A DNA stretch of 34,219 bases. Origin: Pseudomonadota bacterium (GTDB lineage Bacteria > Pseudomonadota > Gammaproteobacteria > Steroidobacterales > Woeseiaceae). The notes under the pieces are model-generated. The model did not search any database and was not told the origin of the DNA. It saw only the letters and a program-made list of their open reading frames with translations. A program made the position numbers and the translations under genes. The stretch is taken from assembly GCA_022573655.1 (NCBI GenBank), contig JACZTO010000006.1:34396-68614 (forward strand), read 5' to 3'. Positions 1,311 to 23,499 of the stretch are shown in pieces; position 1 is the stretch's first letter; the number at the start of each line of letters is the position of its first letter.

Positions 1311-3482
1311 TTACAGGATAAAACCCGAGCGCCTGAACGGCAGTTCGCGAATTCGTGTCCCGGATGCCGCAAATATCGCATTGGCGATCGCCGGTGCCAC
1401 CGGGGCGAACGGCGGTTCGCCGAGACCCGTAGGCGAATTGTCGCTCTGGATGAAATGACACTCGACTTCCGGTGCCTTGTCGATGCGCAGCATCGGGTGA
1501 GCATGGAAGTTGGTCTGTTGCGCTGAACCTCCGGCGATCGTTGTCTCCAGCTGCGTTGTGCTGAGCCCATCCATCACGGCGCCTTCCACCTGGTTCTTGG
1601 CACCACTCAGGTTCAGGATCGGACCCACGTCCACGGCGGAATACACCTTGTCCAGTGTGAAACGATCTCCGTCTATCGAAACTTCAGCAACGTGAGCAGC
1701 GTATCCCCGGTGATCGAAGTGAAACGCTATGCCCAGACCGCGATTGTTCTCCATCTCGCGTCCCCAGCCCGCCTTCTCTGCGGCCACTCGCAGGGTGCCT
1801 GAGCCGCGCTCGGTATCCAGTTGCGGCTTGCCGAAGGACTGCGATAACAGGTCGAGGCGAAACTCGAGCGGGTCGCGCCCGGCCGCCAGCGCGACTTCGT
1901 CGAAGAAGCTCTGGTAGGCGAAGCAATACGCCGAGTGCCCGGGCGAGCGCCACGGTCCTGTCGGCACATGGGTTTCAATGATGGACTGCCGAAGCCGGAA
2001 GTTGGGCACAAGTCCCGCTGGGTAATGATTGGCGGACAACCTGGCTCCCGAAACTGTTTTGCCGCCCATGCCCAAGGTAATGAAATGGTGATCGAAGGCG
2101 ATCATGCGGCCTTCATCACTCAGGCCGGCTTTGAAGTGGTGCCAGCCCGCGGGGCGGTAAAAATCGTGGGCCATATCATCTTCGCGAGTCCAGAGCAATT
2201 GCACCGGCCGGCCGGTTTCTCGCGCGATCCACGCGGCTTCGACCGCAAAGTCGAGCCGTGATCGACGACCGAACGCCCCACCGATACGCACCTGGTTGAC
2301 GTGGATCCGGCCTTCGGGAATGCCCAACGTTTGCGAGATCAGCTTCCTTTGTGTCTGCGGGTTTTGCGAGGGCGCCCACAGCTCCAGCTTGCCGGACTCG
2401 TGCAGCAGGGCGGTGCAGTTCATCGGTTCCATGGTCGCATGCGCAACGAAAGGGTAGTGGTAGCTGGCTTCGACGATTGTCACAGACCTGTCGAATGTGG
2501 CGTCCACGTCGCCATCATGGCGCAGTGTCTCACCGGGTTCCGCCGCCAGCGTTTTTGCCTGCTCTGCGTACCCTTCGGAAGAATCAGCATGTGTGGTTTC
2601 CCAGTCCACCTCCAAAGCTTCACGGGCGCTATTGGCCTCCCAGAAAGTCTCGGCAACAATGGCGACACCGGGCTGCAGGCCGCTGTATTCATCGGTGCCG
2701 GGCACGATAAAGGCGTGCGTTACGCCAGGTAGCGAGCGAACATGTTCGAGGTTTGCACTGCGTGCTTTGCCACCGAAGACCGGGCATTTCTGGTAGACCG
2801 CGTACAACATACCGTCGAGCCGGATATCGCTGCCGTATATCGGCTGCCCCGTGAGTATCTTCGGATTGTCGACGCCGGGCACGAAAGTACCCAGCAGCTT
2901 GAATTCGGAGGGGCGACTCTTCAACTTGAGTTCGGAGACCTCGGGCGCCGGAAGCGTCGCCGCAGTTTCCAGCAGGCTCGCGTAGGCTTTGGTCCGACCG
3001 CTTGGCTCGTGCGTGATGACGCCGCTTGCAGCGGAACACTCGGATGTCGGTACGCCCCATTCCTTTGCGGCGGCTCCCATCAACAAGTACAAGGCGCCAG
3101 TGCCGGCGATGCGTAGATCGTCCCAGCCGTCGGGTGTGCCGCGGCTGCCGCCCAGGGCCTGGCGGCCATATCGGTCGTCTGCCGGTGCCTGCTCGACGTG
3201 CACGTCTTTCCAGTCAACCTCGAGGCATTCCGCGACCACCATCGGGAAGGCGGTCTTCACGCCCTGTCCCGCGTCCGGGTTCTTGCTAACGATGGTGATT
3301 GTTCCGTCGGGGTCGATGCGCACGTACAGGTTGGGATTCCAGGTTTCCCGCCCGGTCTTACCGGCATTCGGGTTGCCGCAGGATCCAACGCCGATTAACA
3401 GGGCACCGGAGGCCAGCAACGTGGTTTTCAGGAATGCGCGGCGGTCCATGTTGCCGCGATCATCACGTCGTTGGGCATTCAT
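1311..3482 (-). CDS. Molybdopterin-binding large subunit of a xanthine dehydrogenase-family oxidoreductase (IorB-like), Tat-exported
   Basis: This is the large Mo-pterin subunit of a two-subunit hydroxylase/aldehyde oxidase resembling isoquinoline 1-oxidoreductase beta. A twin-arginine signal ([14 protein letters not shown], Arg 14-15) ends near a cysteine in GVGSCGN, so it is probably exported and possibly lipidated. Typical segments are [22 protein letters not shown] and, near the C-terminus, [19 protein letters not shown], which carries the presumed catalytic Glu. Its 723 residues fit the family. The start at 3482 is preceded by an AAGGAGGTGACGT ribosome site and overlaps the IorA-like stop codon by 4 bp (ATGA), implying coupled translation. 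No c-type cytochrome partner is seen. It is the last gene of a seven-gene leftward operon devoted to uronates, so an aldose or uronate aldehyde is a plausible substrate, but this is not shown by the sequence. Confidence 0.9.
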
Positions 3483-3958
3483 ACGTCACCTCCTTCCTCA
3501 GCCGCGTATTGCGCAGCGCGCTTGATCGCCTTGCGAATGCGAATATAGGTCCCGCAGCGGCACAAGTTGCCTGACATGGCTCGGTCAATATCCGCGTCGT
3601 CCGGTTTCGGATTCTGCTCCAGTAACGCCGCGGCGGCCAGGATCTGACCGCCCTGGCAGTAGCCACATTGCGGGACGTCCTCATCGTTCCAGGCTTTCTG
3701 GACCGGGTGGTTGCCATCGGCGGACAGCCCTTCGATCGTGGTGATTTCCCGGTCGGCCATCGTTGTGGCGGGCATCAGGCAGGATCGCGTCGGTGCGCCA
3801 TCAACCAGTACCGTGCACGCGCCGCAAACGCCAATGCCACAACTGTACTTGGTACCGGTCAAGTTCAGTTTATCTCGCAAGGCCCAGAGCAGCGGCATGT
3901 TGGGAGCAACATCTAGCGTGTGCTCTGTTCCATTGATCTTCAGAGTGACCTGGGGCAT
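3479..3958 (-). CDS. (2Fe-2S)-binding small subunit of the molybdenum hydroxylase (IorA-like)
   Basis: This is the iron-sulfur electron-transfer subunit that partners the adjacent Mo-pterin subunit. Its 159 residues carry two [2Fe-2S] motifs. The plant-ferredoxin type uses Cys40, Cys45, Cys48 and Cys60 ([12 protein letters not shown]). The helical type uses Cys98, Cys101, Cys133 and Cys135 (CGYCQGG and NLCRCGTY). The start at 3958 was chosen because GGAG sits just upstream and [15 protein letters not shown] is the family N-terminus. A longer open frame reaches 4171, but it runs through the GH115 gene. There is no signal of its own; in this family it is carried out as a folded complex on the Tat signal of the large subunit. 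It starts 13 bp after the GH115 stop and overlaps the next gene by 4 bp. Very secure. Confidence 0.95.
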
Positions 3959-3971
3959 GTCAATTCTCCAT

Positions 3972-6080
3972 TTATCCGTCAGCGGCCCGGATGTTGTCGC
4001 GGGCTTGATGAATACGTTCTTTGAGGCCGTCCATCTTGAATTTAGTGTCGCCGTCGTACCACCGGGTGAACCTACCGTGTTCGGCTTGGTCGAGAGCATG
4101 TCGTGTGGCGTCGAGACTGTTTGCAGCCGTATCAAGCAGATCAACAGTACTCTCCCCGGCCCCGGATTCAAGCGTCATGAATGCACGGGTCACCGCGTTG
4201 AGCGTCTCGTTGAGGTGCAGCATGAACCTGGCGTGTATGAGCAGGTTGTCGTTGAAAAAAACACGTTTGGACGGAGGCAAGGCTTCGAACAACTGCTCAC
4301 CTCTTGCGACGACCTGTTTTAGTTTGGCAATTGACCCTTCAGTACCTTTTACAATCGCCTCGAGTTGATCGCCTGTTCCGGTGTCTTGCGGCACGATGCG
4401 AAAATACTCACCGGGCGTCGAGAACCCTTGGTCGCGGAGGGGGTTGGGCGCATAGCCTGTCGCAAAGTGGGCGGTGAGCTGTTCGATGGCGCGCGCGTAG
4501 CGCATGTCCTGAAATATGTACTGCCGCGGGAATCCGTTCAGGTCGGGGCGTTTCTGTTGCCAGTACGAATCGAAATAGTCGCGGTACAGGTTGGCGATAT
4601 CGCTAGCGTGTTCAGCGCCGAAATACTGCGTACAGAACGCCTGCATGAAGCTGTCGGTATCGTATCCCTGGAAATCCCAGAGGAGTGCGGCGTTCGCGCT
4701 CATCGTCATTACGAACTCGCGTATGTTGCCGGCATTGACGACGGAGAATTCGAGAGGCCGCGCGTTCTTGCCGTCAACGTAGCGGAAGTTTCGTTCCATT
4801 TTCCATGGCCCTTCTCCTTGTGCCAGATGGGACCCGCTCGATGTGAACTGGAAGTTCATGTAATAGCCGATTGGTCGATCCTCCGGCACCTCCATATTTC
4901 TCAGATCGGCGGCGGGAAAATGGTCGCGTCGGGCTGCAACGAAATTCCAGATGAGCGTCGGGTCCGATGGCGGACGCAAATGACCTGCGGCAAAGAGCAA
5001 GGATTTTTCGCTGTAGAGCGTAGTCCGCATCGGTGGAGAGGCGTCTTCCGTAACCTCTTTCAGAAGTTTGACCTGTTCGTTCATCATCTGCTCGATGACG
5101 GCGCCGCGTTCGGCATCGGATTCAGGGGAGTCTTCGTAGAAAGCCCAGAACGGAATGTCGCGATGGCCGCGAAAGCCGATGAGCCAGATGATGTCCATAC
5201 GTTCTTTGATGTTCGTTTCGATGTGGTAACGCCAGAAACTTCGCAGAGCGTCAACATTCTTGATCGAGGTGCGCGGCGGTTCCTGGTTGCGGATCTTCTG
5301 CCCGTAGTTGTCCCAATCGCGCATCGATGAACCGAACGTAAAGACGTGATGGCCGGTGATGACGAGACCCCGATCCCGAGCGGCCCGCGCTTCGCGACCG
5401 GCGGTGAACGCTTGATTGAAGGCGTCACTGTCCATGAGCCGTCCTTCGAGTGTGTTCATTTTCAGACGCAACATGGTTTCGAGAAACGCTTCGTAGTTTT
5501 CGGGCGCGCGTTCTTGCCAGGGTGAAAAGAGGTCGCGGTCGTTCGGGAACCAGGCGCGCCATTTCACGTACGGTTCGTCGAAAACGATTCTTGTATCAAC
5601 AGGAACGTCAACAGAGCTCAAACGATCGTGCTCCCACGAGGCCCAGAACCACAGGGGCGGAATGTTCAGGAATTCTTTGGAGAACTCATAGATGGCGTAG
5701 ATCGTCCCGCGCATGTCGGTGCCCTGCAGGACGATGTGGGGCACACCGTTTTTTTCTTTCACGGTTACCCGGTATGCCTCGGAGCCGCGCAAGGACGCGT
5801 CGCGAAACTCCGCCGTCAGACTGCCGGTACCACTGACGACGATTACGCTCTGGCCTGCCGTGTCTGGCAGGGAATTCACAATCGGTGACGGGACACCCAG
5901 CACGAGTTCGAGATCCCGTTGCAGGTCTCTGACAGCGCGGTGGACCGGGTCTGGCGCGGCAGGGTCGACGAGAATGGGCACACCGGGTTCGAGAGCTACA
6001 ATTTCATCCGTTGTAGCGGTGCAACCCCATCCGGTGATCGCAAACATCATCGCGGCGCATACGAGCAAACTGCGTGTCAC
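3972..6080 (-). CDS. GH115-like alpha-glucuronidase, exported
   Basis: This is a probable glycoside hydrolase of family GH115, which removes alpha-1,2-linked (4-O-methyl)glucuronic acid from xylan or other polysaccharides. Supporting segments are [14 protein letters not shown], then [15 protein letters not shown] (equivalent to the family's INDEDW..PW), the (beta/alpha)8 barrel with [26 protein letters not shown], and the helical part with [28 protein letters not shown] prefer the GTG at 6080 (702 aa), since GGAG lies 6 bases upstream; a GTG at 6092 would add four residues. The N-terminus is hydrophobic and ends in GWGC (Cys20), a weak lipobox, so it is either a lipoprotein or a periplasmic protein. 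At about 700 residues it is shorter than usual for GH115 (850-1000), apparently lacking the C-terminal beta domain. It sits between uxuB and the molybdenum hydroxylase genes, supplying glucuronate to the operon. Confidence 0.82.
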
Positions 6081-6149
6081 GCGGTTCTCCACTTACGATA
6101 GTCCCAGGTACCTGATCTGCTCCGGAGTTGCACCGGGGAAGACCGGCCG

Positions 6150-7637
6150 CTATCGCCTGACCGCACCACTGGCACCATGGCACACGATTGCATCGAGCGA
6201 CGCAACCAGATTGTTCCGAAAGACAGAACTACTTGCCGCCCTCGATTCGAAAATATCAGCAAGGCCGAGCGCCGCATCGACCACATCATTGGCGTTGTTC
6301 GTGGTCGATGACGGCAGATTGGCCAACTGATAAGCAAGCGGATCGTCCAGCACACGCCGTCGACCGTGTTCATCTTCTCCACTGACATAATGAATCCATG
6401 CGGCGATCACCAAAGAAATGTCACTAACAGACTGACCGACATCCATTCGATCTATGGCGGAGGCAATCAATCGCGGCGGCAGTTTCTGAGATCCGTCCAT
6501 GGCAACTTGTGCCGTGCGGTAGGGCAATGACGAATTCTTGAGTCTTCCGAGAATGCTCTCTATGTACTGGGCGACATCGAAACCGTCGGGCATGTGCAAC
6601 GTTGACTGGATTTCCTTTTCCATAAGGTGTCTGACGAAAGCCGCAATGCTGTCATCGCTCATCACTTCATGAATAAATTCATAGCCCTCAATACATCCGA
6701 GGTAGGCCAAAGCGGAGTGACTACCATTCATAAGGCGCAGTTTTGCAGTTTCATAGGGAGCCACGTCTGCGACCATCTCGGCGCCAACATCTTCCCACTG
6801 CGGTCTGCTGTTACAGAACCGATCCTCGATGACCCATTGACTGAATGGTTCGGTAACGACCAGGCCCTGGTCGTCCAGTCCGAGCACGATAGCGGCTGCC
6901 TCTCGATCAGCTGCTGTGGTTGCTGGACAGATTCGGTCGACCATTGACGATGGAAACGTCACGTTGCGTTCAATCCATCGAGATAAATCGGCGTCCAGTA
7001 GCTCTGAATATTCGACAACCACCTGGCGGGTGGCTGCTCCATTGTTGCGAAGATTGTCGCAGCTTAAAACGGTAAACCCTGTGAGGCCGCGTTCACGACG
7101 CCGTTTTAGAGCTTCAACAATATAGCCCACAGCCGTTCGAGGACATTGCGGATCATTCAAATCTGCGACGACGTCCGGGTGTTCAGTCGCGAGAGCACCC
7201 GTCGACGCATCGCGGTAATACCCTTTTTCGGTTATCGTCAATGAGACAATTTTTGTGTCCGGAGCCGCCATTTGTTCAATCGCCTCATGCGGATCCGTTG
7301 CGGCTGCAATCACCCGTTCGATGGCAGCGATAACACGATACTCACAGGAGTCTTCACCTTTACTCGCAACGGTGTACAACCCGCCTTGAGGATTAAGCTG
7401 CTCGGCGACCGTCGGGCTGCGAAGTGAAACACCGACAATTCGCCAATCGCCCCCATGCAGAGCGAGCACACTGTCCGTGTAAACAGCCTGATGACCGCGA
7501 TGAAAGGCACCGACGCCGAGGTGCACGATGCCGACGCCATGATGCGACGGCTCGTAGCCAGGCTGAACGACACCCTCATCGAGCTGAGTCAATGTTGATG
7601 GCGAAAGGCGCGCCGGAACTGTGTCGATCTTCGTCAT
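6150..7637 (-). CDS. uxuB: Fructuronate reductase (mannitol dehydrogenase family)
   Basis: This polyol-dehydrogenase-family enzyme most likely interconverts D-fructuronate and D-mannonate with NAD(H). The N-terminal Rossmann part begins at VGIVHLGVGAFHRGHQAVY. The catalytic motif KLRLMNGSHS places Lys299, Asn304 and His307. TEPFSQWVIEDRF and VLSCDNLRNNG are further family signatures. The start at 7637 is chosen because GGGAG precedes it and the ATG overlaps the uxuA stop codon (ATGA), the usual sign of coupled translation; an upstream ATG at 7655 is less likely. Length (495 aa) is normal. An alternative reading as mannitol 2-dehydrogenase or altronate oxidoreductase is made unlikely by direct coupling to uxuA and the presence of uxaC in the same island. 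Confidence 0.92.
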   Translation of the reverse strand: MTKIDTVPARLSPSTLTQLDEGVVQPGYEPSHHGVGIVHLGVGAFHRGHQAVYTDSVLALHGGDWRIVGVSLRSPTVAEQLNPQGGLYTVASKGEDSCEYRVIAAIERVIAAATDPHEAIEQMAAPDTKIVSLTITEKGYYRDASTGALATEHPDVVADLNDPQCPRTAVGYIVEALKRRRERGLTGFTVLSCDNLRNNGAATRQVVVEYSELLDADLSRWIERNVTFPSSMVDRICPATTAADREAAAIVLGLDDQGLVVTEPFSQWVIEDRFCNSRPQWEDVGAEMVADVAPYETAKLRLMNGSHSALAYLGCIEGYEFIHEVMSDDSIAAFVRHLMEKEIQSTLHMPDGFDVAQYIESILGRLKNSSLPYRTAQVAMDGSQKLPPRLIASAIDRMDVGQSVSDISLVIAAWIHYVSGEDEHGRRRVLDDPLAYQLANLPSSTTNNANDVVDAALGLADIFESRAASSSVFRNNLVASLDAIVCHGASGAVRR

Positions 7638-8821
7638 TGCAAACTCCCTTGCCATTCGAGGGTCCGTATGACACCGCGCAGCTCAGCAAGACCTTTGAGC
7701 CTGCCGACATAGGAGTAGCCCGGGTTGACACCACTTTGCTCCAGCTCGTCGCCCATCGTGTGGCCGTGATCCGGCCGCATCGGAATCTCTGACATTGCCC
7801 CGCCCGACTCACTGCGCGCGGATTCCTGTTGCAGCAATGCCGATAGCAGGCTGATCAGGTCATTGTCACCGTCGAGGTGATCGGACTCGTAAAACGAACC
7901 GTCCTGCTCGCGCGTGACATTGCGAAGATGAACGAAGTGAATGCGCTCACCGAATTCTTCGGCCATTTGAGTCAGGTCGTTGTCGGCCCTGGCACCAAAT
8001 GATCCGGCGCACAGGGTCAGACCATTGGCGGCGTTGTCCTGCAGCGCAAATATTTTTCGTACGTCATCGGCGGTCGAGACGATGCGAGGAATGCCGAACA
8101 ACGAAAACGGTGGATCGTCCGGGTGAATCGCCATCGCAATGCCATGCTCTACCGCAACGGGTACAACCTCGGACAGAAAAACCTCAAGGTTTTCCCGTAG
8201 CCCCCGCTCACCCAGTGACCGAAAGAATTCGATCTCAGCGCGCAGTCCTTCACGATCGTAGGAACCCTCTCCCCCGGGGAGCCCGGCGATAATGCTTTTC
8301 TCGAGCGTCACGCGTTCGTCTTCGCTCAGCGAAGCATAGAACGACTCCGCACGAGCTAGCAGGTCATCATCATAATCGAGCGCTGCATCGCGACGCTTGA
8401 GCATATACACGTCGTACGCTGCAAACTGTGCAGCATCGAAACGCAGGGCCCGTGCACCGTTTTGCAGTTCAAAATCCAGCTCGGTCCGTGTCCAGTCAAC
8501 GATCGGCATGAAGTTGTAGCAAATAACGCCGACGCCTACTTCGGCCAGATTCCGGATCGTCTGTTTATAGGCTTCGGTTTTTTCGTCGCGACCCGCATTG
8601 CCTTTCTGAATGTCCGCATGGAGTGGTACGGACTCTACGACCGACCATTTGAGACCTGCGTCTTCAATTTCAGAATTGCGGTCTTCAATGTCACCTACAG
8701 GCCAGACTTCGCCCGTTGGTATTTCATGCAATGCGGTCACGATGCCCGTGGCCCCCGCCTGCGCGATCTTCTGCAGTGAAATCGGGTCATTCGGACCGAA
8801 CCATCGCCAGCACTTCTTCAT
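7634..8821 (-). CDS. uxuA: Mannonate dehydratase
   Basis: UxuA dehydrates D-mannonate to 2-keto-3-deoxy-D-gluconate in the cytoplasm, using a divalent metal in a TIM-barrel fold. The protein starts MKKCWRWFGPNDPISL and contains the segments AGATGIVTALHEIP, HPDDPPFSLFGIPRI and FVHLRNV, all typical of UxuA. The start at 8821 is supported by a strong GAGGAGG ribosome site and gives 395 residues, the usual family size; the open frame upstream to 8899 overlaps the previous gene and is not coding. It starts 10 bp after the Gfo/Idh stop and overlaps uxuB by 4 bp. Identification is secure. Confidence 0.96.
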   Translation of the reverse strand: MKKCWRWFGPNDPISLQKIAQAGATGIVTALHEIPTGEVWPVGDIEDRNSEIEDAGLKWSVVESVPLHADIQKGNAGRDEKTEAYKQTIRNLAEVGVGVICYNFMPIVDWTRTELDFELQNGARALRFDAAQFAAYDVYMLKRRDAALDYDDDLLARAESFYASLSEDERVTLEKSIIAGLPGGEGSYDREGLRAEIEFFRSLGERGLRENLEVFLSEVVPVAVEHGIAMAIHPDDPPFSLFGIPRIVSTADDVRKIFALQDNAANGLTLCAGSFGARADNDLTQMAEEFGERIHFVHLRNVTREQDGSFYESDHLDGDNDLISLLSALLQQESARSESGGAMSEIPMRPDHGHTMGDELEQSGVNPGYSYVGRLKGLAELRGVIRTLEWQGSLQ

Positions 8822-8831
8822 TAGAGCCTCC

Positions 8832-10049
8832 TCATGACTCCATTTGATAATTGTGTTCGGCGCTCCACGGAATGACTTTCTTGCCGTCCATGGCGTCAAT
8901 CGCCAACTGCACCATTACAGAAAGCTTCGCTCCGCTGCCCGCATTCGCGACGGGCTGCCGCTTGTCTCGTATTGCCTCGCCGAATTTTTGCAGGGCAACT
9001 GGCGTAGGATCATCGGCCGGCGCGTCAATACGCATCGCGGATCCTTCGTTCGCTGTTTTATACGCATTCTCCGGCCCTACATCGACGGATGCACCCGATA
9101 CCAGATCGACACCGGCGGACGCCGCGATCGCATCGCCTTCCGGTACCAACCAGCCGCGGCGTGTTGTCAGAATCACCGTCCCTTTTTTACCCAGTACGGA
9201 TATTCGAAAACCGTCGAGGCTGTTCGTGGTTAGACTGGTATACGTTGCGGTTACACCTGACTTGTAGCGAGTGACAACGTGCACGTTGTCGTAGGTTTCT
9301 CTGCCATCGACCCAGTAGTCAATGCCTCCAACACCCTGGATGTGCTCTAACTCGCTGCCGATCACCCAGTCGCAAAAGCCCATCTGATGCGAGCACAGTT
9401 CGGCAACCAGGCCACTGGAATATTCGCGATACATACGCCAATTGACCTGTCGCTCCCATTTGGGATCCGGCACCCGGCGGCGCCAATTACCATTGCGGTT
9501 CCACTGGCAGTTAACCGCGGTGATCTGCCCAATATCGCCGTTCGCGATCAACCTGGCTGCTGCTTCGTACAACGGCGAAGTTCGGTATTGAAAGCCTGTC
9601 TGAAAAATCTGGCTCGGACGTTTCTGCGTCGCGTCAAATACTTCCCGGGTTTCGGCGATGCCTTTGATCATCGTCTTTTCGCAATAGACATGCTTACCCG
9701 CGTCCAGCGCAGCCAACACGACAGGATGGTGCTCACTGAAGTGCGTCGACACGATTACCGCATCCACGTCTTTGTCGTCGAGCAAGCGACGGTAGTCTGA
9801 ATAGGACCGCGCGCCAGGTTCTGCAGCTCTAGCCTCCTCAAGTCGAAATGGCAACACGTCGCAATAGGCGACGAGCTTTAGCATCGGAACGTCCTGCAGG
9901 AACTTGAAATGCTGCTTGCCCCGCGAGCCGACACCGATGATGCCAATTCCGATTCGATCAGTTGCAGAACGGGTGCTCGCAAGCGCCGGACCAAGTCCAA
10001 CGCTCGCCGCTATCGCCCCACCTGTAATTAGGAAGTCTCGTCGTTTCAT
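8832..10049 (-). CDS. Gfo/Idh/MocA family oxidoreductase with Tat signal
   Basis: This is a nucleotide-dependent sugar oxidoreductase predicted to be exported by the Tat system. The signal is MKRRDFLITGGAIAASVG (Arg 3-4), with a likely cleavage after the ALA near residue 24. The dinucleotide motif GVGSRG is at residues 39-44. The usual EKP motif reads EKT at 124-126 (HVYCEKTMIKG), which keeps the catalytic lysine. The segment WRRRVPDPKWERQVNWRMY and the C-terminal substrate domain fit glycoside-acting members. It lies between the DUF1080 gene (10 bp upstream) and uxuA (10 bp downstream) in operon A. Tat export suggests the nucleotide is carried out tightly bound, as in glucose-fructose oxidoreductase. 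Together with DUF1080 it may form a 3-keto-glycoside cleavage pair (inference). The family is certain; the substrate is unknown. Confidence 0.92.
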   Translation of the reverse strand: MKRRDFLITGGAIAASVGLGPALASTRSATDRIGIGIIGVGSRGKQHFKFLQDVPMLKLVAYCDVLPFRLEEARAAEPGARSYSDYRRLLDDKDVDAVIVSTHFSEHHPVVLAALDAGKHVYCEKTMIKGIAETREVFDATQKRPSQIFQTGFQYRTSPLYEAAARLIANGDIGQITAVNCQWNRNGNWRRRVPDPKWERQVNWRMYREYSSGLVAELCSHQMGFCDWVIGSELEHIQGVGGIDYWVDGRETYDNVHVVTRYKSGVTATYTSLTTNSLDGFRISVLGKKGTVILTTRRGWLVPEGDAIAASAGVDLVSGASVDVGPENAYKTANEGSAMRIDAPADDPTPVALQKFGEAIRDKRQPVANAGSGAKLSVMVQLAIDAMDGKKVIPWSAEHNYQMES

Positions 10050-10059
10050 TTTTGTGTAC

Positions 10060-11433
10060 TCACCACTCTCGGACTTTGATGCTGCGGAAGCTCACGGCGT
10101 TGCCATGGTCCTGCAACAGGATGCGACCGTCCGGCCACTGGCAGAAGCCGTCCCAGTCCTTGTACTTGCTGTAGGCGACCAGCGCACGAAACGTTTGGCT
10201 GCTTCGATCGAACTCGACGACTTTCTCGTTGTTCAGCCAATGCTCGACGTGCCCGTTGTCCGAGACGACCCGGCCCTGGTTCCACTGCCCGATGCCCTTG
10301 AACTGCTTGGCGCGCCCCTCGGTCTGGAGATTTTCCGCCGTGATCAGGTCATACAACGAACCCAGCGTCCGATTGCCGTTCACGCCTAGCTTGGCATCCG
10401 GGTGCACCGCGTCGTCAAGAATCTGGAATTCACAGCCGATTGCGGAACCCGGTCCCGTGTTCAGGTCCGGATCGACGAAGTATTTCACGCCGCTGTTCGC
10501 ACCCTCGGAAATGAGGAATTCGAATTGCAATTCGAAATTGTTGAAGCTGTCCAGGGTCACAATATCGCCCGGGCCCGTGGATTCGCGACCATCGGTCTCA
10601 TCGACCGACAGGACACCGTCTTCCATGTTCCAGCCCTCGGGGGGGAAATGATCCAGATTGGCACCACGCCAACCTGCGGATGTCTTGCCGTCCCACAACA
10701 GCCGCCAGCCGTGCCGTTTCTCGAGGTCCGTCAAGCGGTTCTGGAGATAACTGATTGGCACGACTTCCGGGTCGCGAGGCATGCGGTTGGCCTCAAGATC
10801 GTCGGTCAGGATTCGCAGATTGCGCCAGCGCACGCTGCGGCCGGCCAATTCGGGGTCCTTGATACTGTGCACCTGTAGACCGATGAAGCCTTTGGCCGTC
10901 ATATTGTCGATCATGTCCGCCGTCTGTATGCCGTTCACCCAGACCCGGAACGAGTCGCCGATGGCCTCGACACGGAACCGGTTCCAGTCACCGTTCCTGA
11001 ATGCATCACGGCCCTTCTCGTTGCGTGACAAGGGATACATCCATTTGCGGCGCTTCTCGTCATAGAGACCGCCGCTGAAGCGGCGATGCGTCGGATCGAC
11101 CTCTACTTGATATCCCTGCACAATCCCTTTGACCCCGATGTTACTGCGGATCTGCACGCCCGAGTTCATCGGCGCGTCCAGGCGCGTTTCGTATTCCAGG
11201 ATGAAATCGGAGTACTGCTTCTTTGTCACCAGAAAGGTGTTGGGCGAATCCGCGACGGTGTAGCCAACGATCTCGCCGCCGTGAACTTCGTATCGGGCAG
11301 TGCCTCCGACTTGTTCCCAGCCAGCCAGGTCAGAACCGCTGATCAGGGTCTGCCACTCTGCAGCCTGTATTGGTCCTGCCAGCAGACCGGCCATACAAAT
11401 GGTGACGAACTGAATTTGAGCATTGTTTTTCAT
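10060..11433 (-). CDS. Exported protein with two DUF1080 (3-keto-disaccharide hydrolase-type) domains
   Basis: DUF1080 domains have a concanavalin-like beta-sandwich fold, and some members hydrolyse 3-keto-glycosides made by Gfo/Idh/MocA enzymes. Two copies are visible. The first runs from about WQTLISGSDLAGWEQVGG to LRILTDD, and the second from WRLLWDGKTSAGWRG to the conserved ending QDHGNAVSFRSIKVREW. Both contain the NSGVQIRS / NSGVKYFV type segment and the strand around YQVEVD or CEFQILDD. The start at 11433 (ATG, MKNNAQIQFVTICMAG) gives a Sec signal peptide cleaved near IQA|AEW; a GTG at 11454 is possible but has no ribosome site. It is the first gene of operon A, 154 bp from the palindromic operator. 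Family is secure; catalytic role is inferred from context. Confidence 0.9.
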   Translation of the reverse strand: MKNNAQIQFVTICMAGLLAGPIQAAEWQTLISGSDLAGWEQVGGTARYEVHGGEIVGYTVADSPNTFLVTKKQYSDFILEYETRLDAPMNSGVQIRSNIGVKGIVQGYQVEVDPTHRRFSGGLYDEKRRKWMYPLSRNEKGRDAFRNGDWNRFRVEAIGDSFRVWVNGIQTADMIDNMTAKGFIGLQVHSIKDPELAGRSVRWRNLRILTDDLEANRMPRDPEVVPISYLQNRLTDLEKRHGWRLLWDGKTSAGWRGANLDHFPPEGWNMEDGVLSVDETDGRESTGPGDIVTLDSFNNFELQFEFLISEGANSGVKYFVDPDLNTGPGSAIGCEFQILDDAVHPDAKLGVNGNRTLGSLYDLITAENLQTEGRAKQFKGIGQWNQGRVVSDNGHVEHWLNNEKVVEFDRSSQTFRALVAYSKYKDWDGFCQWPDGRILLQDHGNAVSFRSIKVREW

Positions 11434-11559
11434 GAATTGGGTTCGCGGCAACACGCCGTGGCCTCCAGGTCAGGGGATGAAATTATTTCGATCGGGCTCA
11501 ATGTGTCGCGTCACAGCATGATTTGAACAGGGCTTGAACCGCATCGAAACCAGAAAAAG

Positions 11560-11588
11560 TTGTCGCCAATGGCTTTAATCAATATAAT
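11560..11588 (+). promoter_or_regulatory. Sigma70-like promoter for operon B (SDR, sulfatase, CE15)
   Basis: A -35 box TTGTCG (4 of 6 consensus bases) at 11560-11565, a 17-bp spacer, and a perfect -10 box TATAAT at 11583-11588. The predicted start point near 11595 falls within the palindromic operator. The leader to the TTG start codon at 11697 would be about 100 bases. Confidence 0.65.
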
Positions 11589-11602
11589 GCTACCGGTAGC
11601 AT
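11587..11602. promoter_or_regulatory. Perfect 16-bp palindromic LacI-family operator
   Basis: The sequence ATGCTACCGGTAGCAT is a perfect inverted repeat with a central CG. It fits the LacI-family pattern TGNTANCGNTANCA at every defined position and resembles the E. coli gluconate/idonate operator type. It sits between operon A and operon B, just downstream of the -10 boxes of both candidate promoters and over both predicted start points. The regulator encoded at 20668-21756 is the obvious candidate to bind it. Confidence 0.8.
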
Positions 11603-11603
11603 C

Positions 11604-11632
11604 ATAATAGCAAAATGCATCCCCGATGCCAA
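11604..11632 (-). promoter_or_regulatory. Sigma70-like promoter for operon A (DUF1080 to IorB)
   Basis: Read on the minus strand there is a -35 box TTGGCA (5 of 6) at 11632-11627, a 17-bp spacer, and a -10 box TATTAT (5 of 6) at 11609-11604. The predicted start near 11597 is again inside the 16-bp operator. The leader to the DUF1080 start codon at 11433 would be about 165 bases. Confidence 0.65.
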
Positions 11633-11696: not shown

Positions 11697-12668
11697 TTGA
11701 TCCGATTTCTGATGCTCGCCTTTGTAACAGTTGTCTGTGCTCCGACATTTTTCCCACTTGTAGTGCTCGCTGACGATGGCGCCGCGCAGAAAGCGGTATT
11801 GGTCACCGGCGCGAGTTCTGGAATAGGGCTCAAAATCACCGAGAAATTGGCCAGCAACGGTTTTCACGTTTACGCAGGCGCGAGAAAAGCCGCTGATCTG
11901 GAGCGCTTGGACGCGATGGAAAATGTCAGTTCGATCCGGCTGGACGTAACCGTGCAGGAAGAAATCGATGCGGCGGTTGAATTCGTCAAGGATCAGGGCC
12001 GAGGACTTTTCGGTGTCGTGAACAATGCAGGCGTCGGTTCGATTTCCTCCCTGGCTACGGGTCCGGAATCGGACATGGATTTCATATTCGGGGTAAACGT
12101 GTACGGCCCGTACAGGATCAACAAGGCGTTCCTGCCTTTTCTCGACGAAAGTGATGGGCGTACAACGACTATAGGATCCGTTTCAGGATTCATTGCCAGA
12201 AAGGCCGGTATCTACAGCATGAGTAAGTTTGCGGTCGAGGCCTACACCGACTCGCTGGCTCTCGAAATTGACGGGAACGGAGTCCACGTCAGCATCGTTG
12301 AACCCGGCACTTTCAAGTCCGGTTTTGCCGTCAGCCAGGCGGCGCGTGCTCTCGCCGCGGCTGATAAAGGCGATATCGAATTAACGGCTGAAGAAAGGAC
12401 GCGATACGAGGGTGTCAGAGTCAGGAACGCCACTCGCAAGGAACCCGACGAGGTTGCCGATGCGGTTCTTGATCTGATGACTGCTGAGAATCCCAAACGC
12501 CGTTACATGGTCACGCCCAACGAACGGCAGGCGCAGGCAGCGATAACGGCTGCGATGCGCCGGCTTGTGCAACTCAACCACGATCAACCCTACAATTATG
12601 ATCGTGAAGGTCTGATTGCTGTACTTGATGAATTACTGGCAGAGATCAGCAACGATACAGGCGATTGA
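11697..12668 (+). CDS. SDR-family NAD(P)-dependent oxidoreductase with N-terminal signal sequence
   Basis: This is a classical short-chain dehydrogenase/reductase. The cofactor motif TGASSGIG starts at residue 37, followed by NNAG, a catalytic serine in TTIGSVSG, and YSMSK with Tyr173 and Lys177. Translation starts at a TTG with GGAG 8 bases upstream; no in-frame ATG offers a better site. The first 25 residues (MIRFLMLAFVTVVCAPTFFP then LVVLA|DD) form a convincing Sec signal or membrane anchor, which is unusual because SDRs normally use cytoplasmic nucleotide. It is the first gene of operon B, 95 bp from the operator. The reaction could be oxidation or reduction of a sugar or an aglycone; the sequence does not decide. 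Its stop is only 3 bases from the next start codon. Confidence 0.88.
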   Translation: MIRFLMLAFVTVVCAPTFFPLVVLADDGAAQKAVLVTGASSGIGLKITEKLASNGFHVYAGARKAADLERLDAMENVSSIRLDVTVQEEIDAAVEFVKDQGRGLFGVVNNAGVGSISSLATGPESDMDFIFGVNVYGPYRINKAFLPFLDESDGRTTTIGSVSGFIARKAGIYSMSKFAVEAYTDSLALEIDGNGVHVSIVEPGTFKSGFAVSQAARALAAADKGDIELTAEERTRYEGVRVRNATRKEPDEVADAVLDLMTAENPKRRYMVTPNERQAQAAITAAMRRLVQLNHDQPYNYDREGLIAVLDELLAEISNDTGD

Positions 12669-12671
12669 TTT

Positions 12672-14137
12672 ATGGTTTTAAATATAGCCATCAAACTTTT
12701 TTTTCTTTACCTGGTTTTTAGCGGCTCGGCTCACTGTGCAGAAAAACCCAATATCGTTTTTATTTTTGCGGATGATCAGTCATGGCCACATGCCAATGCT
12801 TATGGGGACGTATCTGTTAAGACACCGTCTTTTGACAAGATTGCCGAAAAAGGGGTCCTCTTTAACCATGCCTTTGTGGGTGCACCCAGTTGTTCACCCT
12901 CTCGGGCTGTGGTACTCACGGGGCGAAATCATTGGGAATTGGAATCGGCTTCTAATCTTTTCGGGGTCTTTCCTGACAGTCTGCTGACTTATACCCGGCT
13001 TTTGCTCGAAAACGGTTACCAGCTTGGTAACAGCGGCAAGGGTTATAAACCTGGGCGTTCTGATGTTACCTGGGCCGACAGCCCCGTGGGCAATGGAGGC
13101 GGGGATTTCCCCTCGTTTTTTAAGAGTCGCGACAAAAAAAACCATTTGCCTACTGGATGGGCAGCAGCAACCCCCACCGTCCTTATGAGAAAGGTTCAGG
13201 TGAGCAAGCAGGAATTGATCCTTCCAAAATAGAACTGCCACCTTACTTGCCCGATTCACCGGAAGTGCGCAGTGATGTTGCTGACTATTACCTGGAGATA
13301 CAGAATTTCGACGACGAGGTCAGAGAAATCTATGAAACACTTGAAAGCGGGGGCGTACTTGATAACACCCTGATCGTTGTTACCAGTGATAACGGGATGC
13401 CCTTTCCCCGGGCCAAGACAAATCTATATGACGGCGGTGTCCATGTACCCATGGTTATCATGTGGCCCGCAAAAATCCCCCCAAGAAGAGTGCTGGATGA
13501 TTTTGTGAACACCGCCGATCTTGCTCCCACCTTTTTGGAAGCAGCCGGGATAGCTATACCTGGCAGCATGACAGGCAAAAGTCTGCTTACAATTCTCAAG
13601 TCCAGTGAACAAGGGCTGGTAAACCCGGCTTTCACCCGGGTGTACCTGGGTCGTGAACGTCACACCGGCGCCCGGGATGAAAACTACGGCTACCCCATAC
13701 GGGCACTGCGCAACAAGAACTACCTATATCTATGGAACATTTATCCTGACCGATGGCCCGCAGGCAACCCCAATGGATATGCAGATATTGATGGCGGCCC
13801 TACAAAAACCTGGCTGCTTGCCAACCCAAGCCCCACAGACAAAGATTATTTTCAACTGTCAATGGGAATCCGCCCGGAACACGAACTTTACGACCTGCGC
13901 AGAGACCCGGGCCAGGTAAAAAATGCAGCCTACAACCCAAGCTATGAATCCATTCGTAACAACATGCGACAGGAACTTGAGAAATACCTCACTGAAACCG
14001 GTGACCTGCACATGAGCGGCAACGGGATGGCCTACGAAGCCTTTCCTACTTCCCTGGATTTAGATGACGGCATTTCTTACACCAAGCCAACAGAGGCTTA
14101 TATTGATGAGCTGCCGGGTGGTCCCATTAGCCATTAG
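12672..14137 (+). pseudogene. Sulfatase (S1 family, Cys-type), split by a -1 shift in an A8 run
   Basis: This gene for an exported sulfatase would remove sulfate esters from sugars. Frame 1 (12672-13232) holds the signal peptide (ending near SAHC|AE), the metal-binding Asp34-Asp35 (FADDQ), and the formylglycine motif CSPSR with Cys74 and Arg78. Frame 2 (open from before 13157 to 14137) holds PFAYWMGSSNPHRPY, VTSDNGMPF and the C-terminal domain. The frames join at the A run 13134-13141. One missing A, or a ribosomal slip at A AAA AAC (13136-13142), gives continuous ...DKK-K-PFAYW... of about 488 residues, a normal size. The fold resembles heparan N-sulfatase-like members. The start has no clear ribosome site and lies 3 bases after the SDR stop. 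The region is AT-richer than its surroundings. It could be a true pseudogene, a sequencing error, or recoded. Confidence 0.85.
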
Positions 14138-14153
14138 CTTAGCTAAAAGGATT

Positions 14154-15497
14154 ATGACGATGTTCTCAAACAATAAAATTCTATTTTTAATTGTAATTGC
14201 CCTGTGGAGCACCACCATAACGGCTCAAGGCCCAGCGTATGATTTCCCTTCCTTCGACGATCTAATTGCCAAAAGGGGTTTGAATGATCCTTTCATGATG
14301 GTTGATGGACGCAGAGTGAAAACCCTGGAGGACTGGGAAAAACAACGAATGTATATCAAGGATATGCTGCTTTATTATCAGTACGGTTATTATCCCCCGG
14401 CCCCCAAAAACCTAAAAGTTGAGATAAAAAGTTCAAAGACAATACTCAACGGAAGGGCTACGGAAACACAGCTGGTTCTTTCTATGGGACCAAATCACTC
14501 AATAACCATGAGGGTAGATTTATCTGTCCCGCTCAAAGGGAGTGGACCTTTTCCGGTTGTGATAACCGGTGACAGGGGATGGGGCCGGACCGAGGGCCTG
14601 GAAGTGGCCACTGACAGGGGATACATAGTTGCTGATTTTTACCGAACCGATTTGGATCCGGATAATGACGACCGGACAAACGGCGTGCATCCCCACTATC
14701 CGGAATATGACTGGGCCACATTATCTGTCTGGGCCTGGGGGTATTACAGAGTCGTGGATTATCTCATGACTTTGGGAGATGTGGACAAGGATAAAATTGT
14801 GGTTACCGGCCATTCCCGCGGAGGCAAAACTGCATTGCTGGCCGGTGCCATGGATCGTCGGATTGCCATAACTGTACCCGCTGGATCCGGTGCGGGAGGA
14901 TGCGGATCCCTAAAATACTTGGAGGGTGGCGCTCAGAAATTGATGCATATAATGCGGGACGATAAATACGATTACTGGTTCCAACCCAAATTTGACGATT
15001 TTGCAAGGAGAGTGAACCGGCTGCCATTTGACCAGCATTTTCTTAAGGCCTTGGTAGCTCCCCGTCCTTTGCTTTGTACGGATGGTCTGCAGGATGAGTG
15101 GGCCAATCCCTGGGGGGCTCAGCAAACTACAGAAGCTGCGCGGGAGGTATATAAATTTTTTGGAGTCCCGGACAAGATAGGTAATTTCTACCAACAGGGA
15201 GGCCATCATCATAATGTAGAGAGTTGGGAGGCATTGCTGGATTTCTCGGATCACAATTTTTTTGGAAAGGCATTGCCGAGTGATTTCTACAAAGAAAATT
15301 TTGACAGAGTAGACAGCCTGATTAACGGGATGTCGCCGGTTCCGCTTGTTTGGGGATGTATGGATTCAACCTATAAGGAATTTAATCCGCTAGTCACTGC
15401 GAACCTTCCGGGTTCCTGCGTAGTGTCCTGTCCGACCGACCTATCCGGGGAAGAACACTCGAGCGCTCGGAGTGACAAGAATTGCTACAGTAATTAA
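14154..15497 (+). CDS. CE15-like glucuronoyl methylesterase, exported
   Basis: This alpha/beta-hydrolase is of the carbohydrate esterase 15 type, which cleaves esters of (4-O-methyl)glucuronic acid side chains. The nucleophile motif GHSRGGKTAL places Ser221. RTNGVHPHYPEYDWATLSVWAWG, VAPRPLLCTDGLQDEWANP and GGHHHNVESW (likely catalytic His) match the family. The start at 14154 follows AAAAGG; an ATG at 14160 is an alternative. The signal peptide ends near ITAQ|GP. The coding region is AT-rich: the 60 bases from 14161 contain only 19 G or C. The last 35-40 residues, after SPVPLVWG, are rich in Cys and Ser and do not look like a CE15 ending, suggesting the ORF runs into unrelated DNA at a junction. 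It follows the split sulfatase by 16 bp and should be co-transcribed. Confidence 0.85.
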   Translation: MTMFSNNKILFLIVIALWSTTITAQGPAYDFPSFDDLIAKRGLNDPFMMVDGRRVKTLEDWEKQRMYIKDMLLYYQYGYYPPAPKNLKVEIKSSKTILNGRATETQLVLSMGPNHSITMRVDLSVPLKGSGPFPVVITGDRGWGRTEGLEVATDRGYIVADFYRTDLDPDNDDRTNGVHPHYPEYDWATLSVWAWGYYRVVDYLMTLGDVDKDKIVVTGHSRGGKTALLAGAMDRRIAITVPAGSGAGGCGSLKYLEGGAQKLMHIMRDDKYDYWFQPKFDDFARRVNRLPFDQHFLKALVAPRPLLCTDGLQDEWANPWGAQQTTEAAREVYKFFGVPDKIGNFYQQGGHHHNVESWEALLDFSDHNFFGKALPSDFYKENFDRVDSLINGMSPVPLVWGCMDSTYKEFNPLVTANLPGSCVVSCPTDLSGEEHSSARSDKNCYSN

Positions 15498-18363: not shown

Positions 18364-19194
18364 CTACGGAGGCGTCGTCAGCAGAATATCGGCATAGGCG
18401 TCTGCATATCGACGGCCAAGCTCCCGCGCCGACCGTGCATCAAAGTGAGTGCCATCACCAATATCTGTCAGGCCATCCGAAGAGACAAACCTCGTGTGCT
18501 CGATTTGTGCCGGTACGTTTTCATGCACAGCATTAACGAGCTGCCTGCCGTCCGACCATTCTTTGAATTGGCCGAGTTGACCGATGATGAACGGCAGCTG
18601 TTCGTCACTGGCAATGTTGCGAAAACGGCGGATCAGGTCATGCAATCTCTTTTCATACTGGGGTGCCCGCTCCGGCCTTGAGTCCGATTCGCCCTGGTGC
18701 CAAAGAATTGCCTTAAGCTCGCCTGACTGCATGGCCACGCGCAGTCGACGAACAGCATCGTCCCAGGGGTAGAGGCCGGTTTTTTCGTGGTAGCCGCCCG
18801 GTGCCCAGGTCTCAATACCCGAGCCACCGACTGCGGTCGGAACGAGCCATATTCTGATTTCAGGATTCTGTTTAGCGATCTCTTTCGCAAATGCCAGCCC
18901 CGGTCCTGTTCCTCTTACTTCTGGTTTGTCGAAATGCAGCGGCTCGGTCGCGATCACCCACTTGTCATTCTTGTCTAAAACAAATACTCGCGGATGAGGG
19001 GTGCGGTCTATTTCCGACAGCTCTCCTCTTCCGGCCATGTTTGACTGGCCGGCCAGCAAGAAAATGTGCATTGGCGGTAAGGCACTGGATCCTGTCGGTC
19101 CGGAGCAGCCGCTGGTGCAAAAAGTAGCCAGAGCGATGAGCGCGATTACGCGAATTGATCGCTGTATGTCTCTATTGGTCTTCCTGTTCATCAT
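18364..19194 (-). CDS. SASA / CE6-type carbohydrate acetylesterase, lipoprotein
   Basis: This is a probable acetyl esterase of the sialate O-acetylesterase / CE6 group, which includes acetyl-xylan esterases. The SGNH-like motifs are visible: the nucleophile Ser51 in LLAGQSNMAGRG, the oxyanion/Gly-rich segment AVGGSGIETWAPGG, WHQGESD, and the Asp/His motif DGTHFD near the C-terminus. An N-terminal hydrophobic stretch ends in CTSGC, with Cys30 as the lipidation site, so it is likely anchored in the envelope. The start overlaps the end of the interrupted sulfatase gene by 23 bp; an ATG one codon later is possible. It probably removes acetyl groups so that the glucuronidases and sulfatases can act. 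Family call is strong; substrate is inferred. Confidence 0.9.
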   Translation of the reverse strand: MMNRKTNRDIQRSIRVIALIALATFCTSGCSGPTGSSALPPMHIFLLAGQSNMAGRGELSEIDRTPHPRVFVLDKNDKWVIATEPLHFDKPEVRGTGPGLAFAKEIAKQNPEIRIWLVPTAVGGSGIETWAPGGYHEKTGLYPWDDAVRRLRVAMQSGELKAILWHQGESDSRPERAPQYEKRLHDLIRRFRNIASDEQLPFIIGQLGQFKEWSDGRQLVNAVHENVPAQIEHTRFVSSDGLTDIGDGTHFDARSARELGRRYADAYADILLTTPP

Positions 19195-20656
19195 CCATCA
19201 ATTCGAAAAAATCGGCCGGTAGCTGATTTTTGAGACTGTCCATCAGCTCGCGGTGCTGCGTTGCAGATTCCGGATCAGCCGCCAGGTTGGTCCACTCGTT
19301 GGGATCGTCCTCGTGATTGTAGAGTTCTTCACTGCCATCGGCATACAGGCTGTAGCGCCAGGGGCCGGACTGAATTGCTTGCCCAAACCTCACGACATCA
19401 TCGTCGCCGGTGCGTCGATACTGGGTAATTGCCGGGTAGTCCCAGGACGCGTCCGCGTCGCCCAGCAAGGGCACCAGGCTATGGCCCTGGTTGACCGGAT
19501 TCGCGGGCAGGTTGGCCAGGTCCAGCAGGGTGGGGTAGATGTCAATCAGGCCGACCGTTTGGGCACGACTTTCACCTTGCGGCAGGTTCGGTCCGGCGAT
19601 GATCAGCGGAACCTTATTGGCACGCTCCCACAAGGCGTGTTTCTGGAACGTATTCTTCTCGCCAATGAAATATCCATGGTCTGAAAACAGCACAATGATG
19701 GTATTTTCCGCTTAGGGGCTGCTTTCCAGTGCATCGAGCACCTGTCCGACATAGTAGTCAGCAAAATTCACGCTCGCCAGGTATGAGTGAATGATGTCCT
19801 GGTAGACGCCTGTTTCCTTCGCCCATTCGGTTCTCGGCATGTGATTTACGAAATTGAGGCCGATCGCGTAATTCGGAACGTCGTCAAGATCGTCTTTTTT
19901 GTAGGGTGGCGGGGTGACCAACTCGGAATTGCCAATCGCATCGAAATAGCGTTGCGGCACGTACCACGGCACGTGCGGACGCAGGAACCCGACCATCAGC
20001 ATAAACGGGCGATCGTGCTCTTCCTGCAAACGCTCGACGGCCCAGGCGGCAGCCGTCGCATCGGACATTTCCTGCTCGGGAGCCGGATATACGGCCCAGT
20101 CCGTCAGCGTATCTTCCGAAAAGTAGTTGACTTCCTTGCCGTCAGGCATGGTGTCCCAGTCGCCTCGATCGCCGGACATATCAACGCTGCCTTCGGGAAG
20201 ATGCCGATGCAGCAATTTACCGACCGCCATCGTTTTGTAACCATGCTGCGCGAAGTAACTGTGCAGTAATGCCGTATTGTGTTTCTCTGCAGCCTCGACG
20301 ACTAGCGAGTCCGGCTTGGGCTGTTGCAACAATCCCAGTGTGCCCGGCAACAATCCGGAAAACAGGCTGGCACGCGACGGCCCGCAAAGTGGAAACTGGC
20401 TGAAAGCCTGGGTGAACACCGTACCGCGCCCGGCCAGGGCATCGATATGCGGTGTACGCGTATCCGGGTGCGGCCCCGTGTAGCCGACCCAGTCATTCAG
20501 ATCGTCGACAGCGATAAACAGTACATTGGGCGGTTCGGTGACAACAGGTTCATCTTCCTCCGATGTTTGCGGAGCGCAGCCGTTGACAAAAAGCATCAGG
20601 CAGCCGACTGCAAGCAGCCGAAGATAACTGTTCCAGCGACGAAGAGCGTACTGCAT
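19172..20656 (-). pseudogene. Sulfatase lipoprotein (S1 family, Cys-type) interrupted by an in-frame TAA
   Basis: One continuous sulfatase reading frame is broken by a single TAA at 19714-19712. The part before it ends QVLDALESSP, and the part after resumes in the same frame as AENTIIVLFSDHGYFIGEKN, a core sulfatase segment, continuing to 19172. The N-terminal part has a lipobox VNGC (Cys27 counted from the ATG at 20656), the metal-binding Asp pair in FIAVDDLNDW, and the formylglycine motif CGPSRASLFSG (Cys91). I prefer the ATG at 20656, with GAGG 9 bases upstream, over the TTG at 20671. Without the stop the protein would be about 494 residues, resembling iduronate-2-sulfatase-like enzymes. 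The truncated product lacks the second metal-binding half and should be inactive unless the stop is read through. It follows the LacI gene in operon C. Confidence 0.88.
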
Positions 20657-20667
20657 AGAATCTGACC

Positions 20668-23351: not shown

Positions 23352-23365
23352 AGGTAACGTTATCA
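23352..23365 (-). promoter_or_regulatory. LacI-family operator in front of operon C
   Basis: On the minus strand the site reads TGATAACGTTACCT, which fits TGNTANCGNTANCA with one mismatch at the last base. It lies about 40 bp upstream of the beta-helix start codon and overlaps a possible -10 box TATGAT, although I see no convincing -35 box at the right distance. The likely ligand is the LacI-type protein encoded in the same operon. Confidence 0.6.
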
Positions 23366-23447
23366 TAATTATTTGGCGACAGTGACTCTGCTCGGATATA
23401 GCAAGTATACTAAGCTAATACTCGATCAGCACGTGTACACCGCACTA

Positions 23448-23476: not shown

Positions 23477-23485
23477 TACTCAAAA

Positions 23486-23499
23486 TGATAACGATAACA
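23486..23499 (+). promoter_or_regulatory. LacI-family operator in front of operon D
   Basis: The site TGATAACGATAACA fits TGNTANCGNTANCA at every defined base. It lies 64 bp upstream of the GH2 start codon and about 120 bp from the operator of operon C. The remaining bases of the 250-bp intergenic region (23313-23562) show no gene or RNA that I can recognise. Confidence 0.7.

Follow-up and report, generated by a model that had tools for sequence, protein, structure and literature searches.

The 34,219-nucleotide stretch of DNA analysed here (the window) comes from contig JACZTO010000006.1 of a bacterium of the family Woeseiaceae (assembly GCA_022573655.1; 2.27 Mb, 80% complete) and carries two divergent operons separated by a 263-bp gap, in which a perfect palindrome meets promoter-like sequences on both strands. 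The left operon, on the minus strand, begins with the gene for a 3-keto-disaccharide hydrolase (KDH, PF06439; 10060–11433, in an open reading frame (ORF) of 10060–11454 with its likely ATG at 11433). It continues through 10049–1311 with genes for a GFO/IDH/MocA-type oxidoreductase (8832–10049), UxuA (7634–8899), a fructuronate-reductase-like protein that scores below the curated cut-off and is called UxuB here (6150–7655), GH115 (3972–6092), a 2Fe-2S protein (3479–4171) and a molybdopterin-binding protein (1311–3482). The right operon (11697–15497, plus strand) consists of an SDR gene (11697–12668, with a TTG start at 11697 and GGAG upstream), a sulfatase present as two overlapping ORFs (12672–13232 and 13157–14137) and a gene for a glucuronyl-esterase-like protein (PF22244; 14064–15497). 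The palindrome, ATGCTACCGGTAGCAT, occupies 11587–11602; it is even, 16 bp long, centred on CG and has no strand. From there to the KDH start codon runs the KDH leader (11434–11586, minus strand). The only LacI gene identified in the window, LacI-1, lies at 20668–21756 on the minus strand.

The candidate rightward promoter for the SDR operon (11560–11588, plus strand) consists of TTGTCG (11560–11565), a 17-bp spacer and TATAAT (11583–11588), and a candidate leftward promoter for the KDH operon, promoter A (11604–11632, minus strand), consists of TTGGCA (11632–11627), a 17-bp spacer and a TG-extended TATTAT (11609–11604). Each matches the consensus at 10 of 12 positions, and the starts predicted from them, about 11595 and 11597 respectively, both fall within the palindrome. 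The hexamers, spacings, palindrome and start points are those described in the first-pass annotation of this DNA and were all found in the window's letters, as were the divergent KDH and SDR genes flanking the opposed hexamers. That annotation had set the palindrome between the two −10 boxes, which is accurate on one side: the palindrome stops one base short of the minus −10, but covers the last two bases of the plus −10. An alternative leftward promoter, promoter B (11584–11613, minus strand), pairs TTGCTA (11613–11608) with CATTAT across an 18-bp spacer that contains the operator. It matches at 8 of 12 positions, its −10 overlaps the plus-strand −10, and its predicted start is about 11577.

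The palindrome on its own is weak evidence and not striking, because the window contains three perfect 16-bp palindromes against 0.575 expected from 40 dinucleotide shuffles; by proportion, about 0.004 would be expected in the 263-bp gap. With thresholds fixed after the site had been seen, 5000 shuffles of the gap gave promoters of at least 10/12 on both strands in 0.16% of cases and, in one case (0.02%), such promoters face to face with 10–20 bp between the −10 boxes. A looser scan at 9/12 over 1.2 kb gave a small excess, with three found against a shuffle mean of 1.2 (sd 1.2). Two such good opposed σ70-like promoters around one perfect 16-bp palindrome are unlikely to have arisen by chance. 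As text, the two cores overlap one operator, and they are predicted from their hexamers alone.

LacI-family operators are mostly even palindromes of 16–22 nt with a central CG, and more than 75% of them lie 30–140 bp from the gene start (PMC4052901). ATGCTACCGGTAGCAT has this form, and its centre is 102 bp from the SDR start, within the usual range. The palindrome bears the hallmarks of a LacI-type operator, and from its position a single dimer bound there would lie over promoter-like elements of both strands. Another gene for a LacI-family protein, LacI-2, is found about 130 bp to the left of the window on the same contig (13235–14269 of the fetched locus L008). Allowing one mismatch at most, the palindrome recurs in the whole assembly at a single place besides the window site: C30:33113–33128, 1.27 kb to the left of the window and flanked by LacI-2 and a divergent ROK-family gene. 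This copy, TTGCTACCGGTAGCAT, has one mismatch and ends about 105 bp before the LacI-2 ORF; more than three-fourths of local LacI-family regulators are autoregulated (PMC4052901). The single two-mismatch match (C1:8220) is inside an ORF. With up to three mismatches the operator pattern occurs at seven places in its own genome and a reversed control at nine (the control not being split by mismatch).

The motif was then followed in other genomes by a scan for LacI-2, in which 80 of 359 relatives were kept. Two close orthologues were obtained, in the loci L067 (65% identity) and L068 (62%), and the motif accompanies both, as well as a more distant relative (L069, 43%). With gene names assigned by match to the window proteins, L067 reads UxaC, DctP, DctM, LacI-2, a GFO-type gene, UxuB, KDPG aldolase, UxuA, a second GFO-type gene and KDH. 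TTGCTACCGGTAGCAT stands between UxaC and DctP, and an identical ATGCTACCGGTAGCAT stands at 14219–14234, upstream of KDH-GFO-UxuA. In L068, TTGCTACCGGTGGCAT precedes DctP, and a second site in the same genome, TTGCCACCGGTGGCAT, lies ahead of an ORF that UxaC follows. In L069, 20.8 kb that also hold UxaC, DctP and DctM contain five TGCYACCGGTRGCA sites, one pair of which is 30 bp apart. In another genome of the family (G666) a site lies between divergent DctP and UxaC. An operator shared by divergent genes is a recurrent arrangement, seen for UxaC/DctP in L067 and in the locus L170. Over all fetched loci TGCYACCGGTRGCA occurs at 13 distinct places, of which one (in G104) has no uronate genes nearby. 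The recognition helix reads HKRTVTR in LacI-2 and its L067 orthologue and SKRTVSR in L068 and L069; among the 78 of 80 relatives in which the helix was read, L067 alone shares HKRTVTR. No general helix-to-palindrome code was derived, since 64 of the 80 loci had no CG-centred palindrome (at most one mismatch, 400 bp upstream). In six loci (L070, L071, L072, L074, L080 and L085) LacI relatives with an SKKTVSR helix have a ATTGTCCCGCGACAAT or AATGTCCCGCGACATT palindrome about 104–126 bp upstream, possibly a different class of LacI operator.

Given this distribution, 11587–11602 is very likely to be a LacI-2 operator, and the best reading of the sequences is that LacI-2 autoregulates a small uronate regulon. 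We infer the following mechanism. LacI-2 would be a local repressor of uronate catabolism that binds 11587–11602 as a dimer and represses its own gene through the second operator copy. The bound dimer would cover the promoter of the KDH-GFO-UxuA-UxuB-GH115 operon and block polymerase and, in this genome, would also cover a rightward promoter of the SDR-sulfatase-esterase operon. LacI-2 would be released, and both operons opened, by an inducer that is probably a uronate or the keto-sugar made from it. Control of the KDH operon by LacI-2 is likely; for control of the SDR operon the indications are evenly divided, and the same balance applies to the proposal that one LacI-2 dimer governs both. 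The probabilities given to this and to the readings below overlap and do not sum to one.

Conservation of the promoters could be compared in two sequences, the window and L067, the latter (from the same family) being the sole relative found that keeps the operator and KDH together. The operator is identical, and homology visibly ends about 14 bp to its right; over the 100 bases right of the operator, including those 14, 41 of 96 match L067, which is like shuffled sequence (mean 0.47). The plus −10 TATAAT becomes TATTAT in L067. The minus −35 TTGGCA has no alignable counterpart, and the minus −10 becomes TATAGA with its TG extension kept. Weaker candidates, each 8/12, stand at the corresponding positions in L067: rightward ATAACC-18-TATTAT and leftward TCGACC-15-TATAGA. 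We also asked for the facing layout to be kept in relatives having both operator and gene, a measure of our own that forms no part of the published definition; in L067, the only such relative, it is not kept. Loss of the hexamers with retention of the palindrome in related genomes, which the first-pass annotation had named as the pattern contradicting its proposal, is largely what this one relative displays, although the weaker 8/12 candidates persist. Its further suggestion that one dimer could silence both operons agrees with the operator's overlap of opposed promoter-like elements, but L067 has neither the facing pair nor a rightward gene of at least 120 aa. Facing promoters are plausible in this genome and unsupported by the single comparison.

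Several observations weigh against two-way control by LacI-2. The centre of ATGCTACCGGTAGCAT is about 160 bp from the KDH start, beyond the typical 30–140 bp. The 14-base core occurs in 2 of 119 genomes against 7 of 119 for its reversed control, and one occurrence, in G104, has no query gene matched within 16 kb. In L067 the plus −35 TTGTCG has become TAACCG, which leaves a 10/12 match in a single genome as the basis for the rightward promoter. To the right of the L067 operator the next ORF of at least 120 aa (14322–15470) is on the minus strand, and none of that size begins on the plus strand. Finally, GCATWAT recurs beside these operators and the plus-strand TATAAT is its complement, so that the persistence of TATAAT is poor evidence for transcription to the right.

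This flank was examined across the regulon. CATWAT follows five of the six operators of this genome and the genomes of L067 and L068 when these are read towards KDH, LacI-2 or dctP; the exception, at L160, reads CATTTA. L170 was left out of this count because it was found with a pattern already containing WAT (3 of 396 genomes matched). CATWAT may be an operator flank rather than a promoter element. At the four operators not associated with KDH (LacI-2 in this genome, dctP in L067, dctP in L068, and L160), the operator itself contains a possible −35, TTGCYA, and a −10-like hexamer comes after a further 17 bp: TAAACT, TAACGT (read by eye), TAAAGT and TATCCT, respectively. Judging by these four, which do not include the five L069 sites, repression in the regulon may generally work by covering the core promoter.

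Among the alternative layouts, there is a real, if tentative, possibility that the operator serves the KDH operon alone, in which case the rightward hexamers would be chance or flank and the SDR operon would have another promoter. The coincidence of TATAAT with the flank fits this, as does L067, where the operator and KDH persist but there is no rightward gene as long as 120 aa. None of the SDR upstream regions of seven relatives was convincingly homologous to the window gap (best E 0.011). The SDRs present in the L067 and L068 genomes are all distant (best listed identities 21–52%, E 7e-18 at best). Because homology breaks beside the operator and only such distant SDRs occur in those genomes, the SDR operon is probably a later neighbour. 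On the other side, TTGTCG-17-TATAAT is the sole plus-strand 10/12 promoter in the gap, both-strand pairs of this kind are rare in shuffles, and the distance from operator to SDR start is a usual one for LacI.

A bidirectional promoter with one shared −10 is possible but doubtful. Here TATAATG would be read both ways, with KDH starting at about 11577 from the −35 TTGCTA, SDR starting at about 11595 and the operator overlapping the −10. These starts, predicted from hexamers alone, are 18 bp apart, the commonest reported geometry of bidirectional promoters (PMC12825309, PMC10268837). Besides the palindrome, L067 keeps its two flanks, TTTGCTAT and, at the opposite end, CATWAT; these combine into a leftward TTGCTA-18-CATWAT with the operator in the spacer; promoter B there is TTGCTA-18-CATAAT (9/12), with the same spacing as in the window, and the homologous block ends just past TTTGCTAT. 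However, within the window promoter B, at 8/12, scores below promoter A, at 10/12, the comparison is of two sequences only, and CATWAT may be flank, because it also comes after the dctP and LacI-2 operators, which have a different −10-like hexamer to use. The reciprocal −11A/−7T rule is satisfied, TATAATG reading TATAAT one way and CATTAT the other, but this is uninformative, since every −10 whose second base is A and whose sixth is T does so.

The convergent face-to-face promoters as first drawn, with starts at 11595 and 11597 and polymerases excluding each other, are unlikely. Their 10/12 matches, 17-bp spacings, TG-extended minus −10 and rarity in shuffles (1 of 5000) speak for them, as does the TG-extended TATAGA retained leftward in L067, which TCGACC precedes by 15 bp. 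Against them, both −35 hexamers are missing from L067 and the minus −10 has changed. It is rather improbable that the site represents operator capture midway, in which a rearrangement would have brought an SDR-sulfatase-esterase operon, itself unrelated, next to a LacI-2 operator that was already there. A −35 newly arisen 17 bp from the old flank or −10 read in reverse would then have converted a promoter repressed in one direction into a LacI-controlled bidirectional promoter with one shared −10.

The first-pass annotation had proposed footprinting the site with the LacI protein; the regulator is probably LacI-2 and not the LacI-1 of the window, whose own locus carries another motif. The probable LacI-1 operator, GGTAACGTTATCAT (23353–23366, no strand), is in the gap between a minus-strand gene beside LacI-1 (23312) and the beta-glucuronidase operon (plus strand), with a one-mismatch match at 23485–23498. 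With at most one mismatch, GKTAACGTTATCAT occurs in this genome only at these two places (one match for the reversed control), and the LacI-1 orthologue in L068 (64%) likewise has TAACGTTATCAT upstream. The recognition helix is SPMTVSR in LacI-1 and SAMTVSR in its orthologue. Since the TACCGGTA motif accompanies LacI-2 and its relatives from genome to genome and the LacI-1 locus has another motif, LacI-2 is the better candidate regulator. Although LacI-1 is of the same family and the sole LacI gene identified in the window, its binding to 11587–11602 is highly improbable, as both it and its orthologue lie near TAACGTTATCAT sites, the GKTAACGTTATCAT matches of this genome are confined to the vicinity of the beta-glucuronidase start, and TACCGGTA accompanies LacI-2. 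The two probable LacI-1 operators would serve the beta-glucuronidase/UxaC/TRAP operon, and in L067 UxaC and DctP carry a LacI-2 operator instead; uxaC-dct may have been rewired from LacI-2 to LacI-1.

A conserved regulatory RNA in the KDH leader was considered and rejected. The 164-nt leader folds no better than shuffles (z −0.18; −0.98 for L067), no Rfam match at gathering scores and no tRNA was found in it, and it is not specially conserved: 113 of 150 aligned leader bases are identical in L067, a level equal to that of the KDH coding DNA (1042 of 1371). Among 369 genomes of the class, leader DNA matched in three, its own, G142 (32 bp) and G298, and no operator was present in the approximately 210 bp around the G298 match. 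KDH relatives were matched, many weakly, in 21 of 119 genomes, and in 6 of 107 genomes of the family at 1e-60. The operator is absent from the regions inspected upstream of KDH relatives in G005, G006, G022 and G094; that of G057 is cut by a contig end. In three relatives of the same genus (L038, L039 and L040), KDH has no LacI-2 operator and is preceded by elements like AATTGGCAAGACCAA and AATCGGTCAGTCCAGT, which from their resemblance we take to be perhaps sites for a GntR-type regulator.

Other features of the region were noted. Sulfatase-like genes are split into two ORFs at 12672–14137 and at 19172–20671 (the second pair named by eye), reflecting either assembly error or decay. At 32754–34175 an Ldh_2 dehydrogenase ORF continues directly into a PilX_N pilus domain (residues 333–382), which suggests that a fusion or rearrangement has its junction at about 33.7 kb. 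A transposase ORF (DUF772, DDE; L008 6576–7682), about 5.5 kb to the left of LacI-2, sits between two ORFs that resemble, by eye, parts of one repeat-rich protein, suggesting an insertion.

A full-text search that covered few subscription journals found the operator letters in no gene-regulation paper, with one unrelated match on myosin kinase, and among the matches listed by a search of the same coverage no paper combined Woeseia, LacI and uronate. Reassigning the regulator to LacI-2 outlines a putative TGCYACCGGTRGCA uronate regulon in Woeseiaceae and some other Gammaproteobacteria, and a compact region with opposed promoter cores under one LacI operator, set beside a relative that has the same operator without a rightward gene, would allow the gain of two-way control to be put to the test.

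A site shared by opposed promoters is a known design. In the bio operon of E. coli one BirA operator covers both promoters, and the E. coli argECBH operon has facing promoters with an internal operator; its regulator is ArgR, where here it would be a LacI-family protein. The face-to-face class of promoters is credited to Beck and Warren 1988 in PMC3584212, and bio (bioA/bioBFCD, with BirA as repressor) is given as an example of the opposed design in PMC3494674. The present site resembles bio in its opposed promoters and differs in its LacI-family repressor and sugar-acid genes, in that promoter use is predicted, and in that the facing layout is not kept in L067. Bidirectional promoters, in which divergent starts lie 7–25 bp apart on opposite strands (PMC10268837) and usually 18 bp apart, are ubiquitous, and their control was unknown before the work of PMC12825309, according to its abstract. 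Under promoter B the window would share with those described by Warman, Grainger and colleagues the overlapping opposed −10s and the 18-bp distance, though here the starts are predicted from hexamers, and the word LacI does not occur in PMC12825309. With the local sugar regulons of the LacI family, as described in PMC4052901, it shares the even, CG-centred 16-bp palindrome, with copies at the regulator gene and at catabolic operons.
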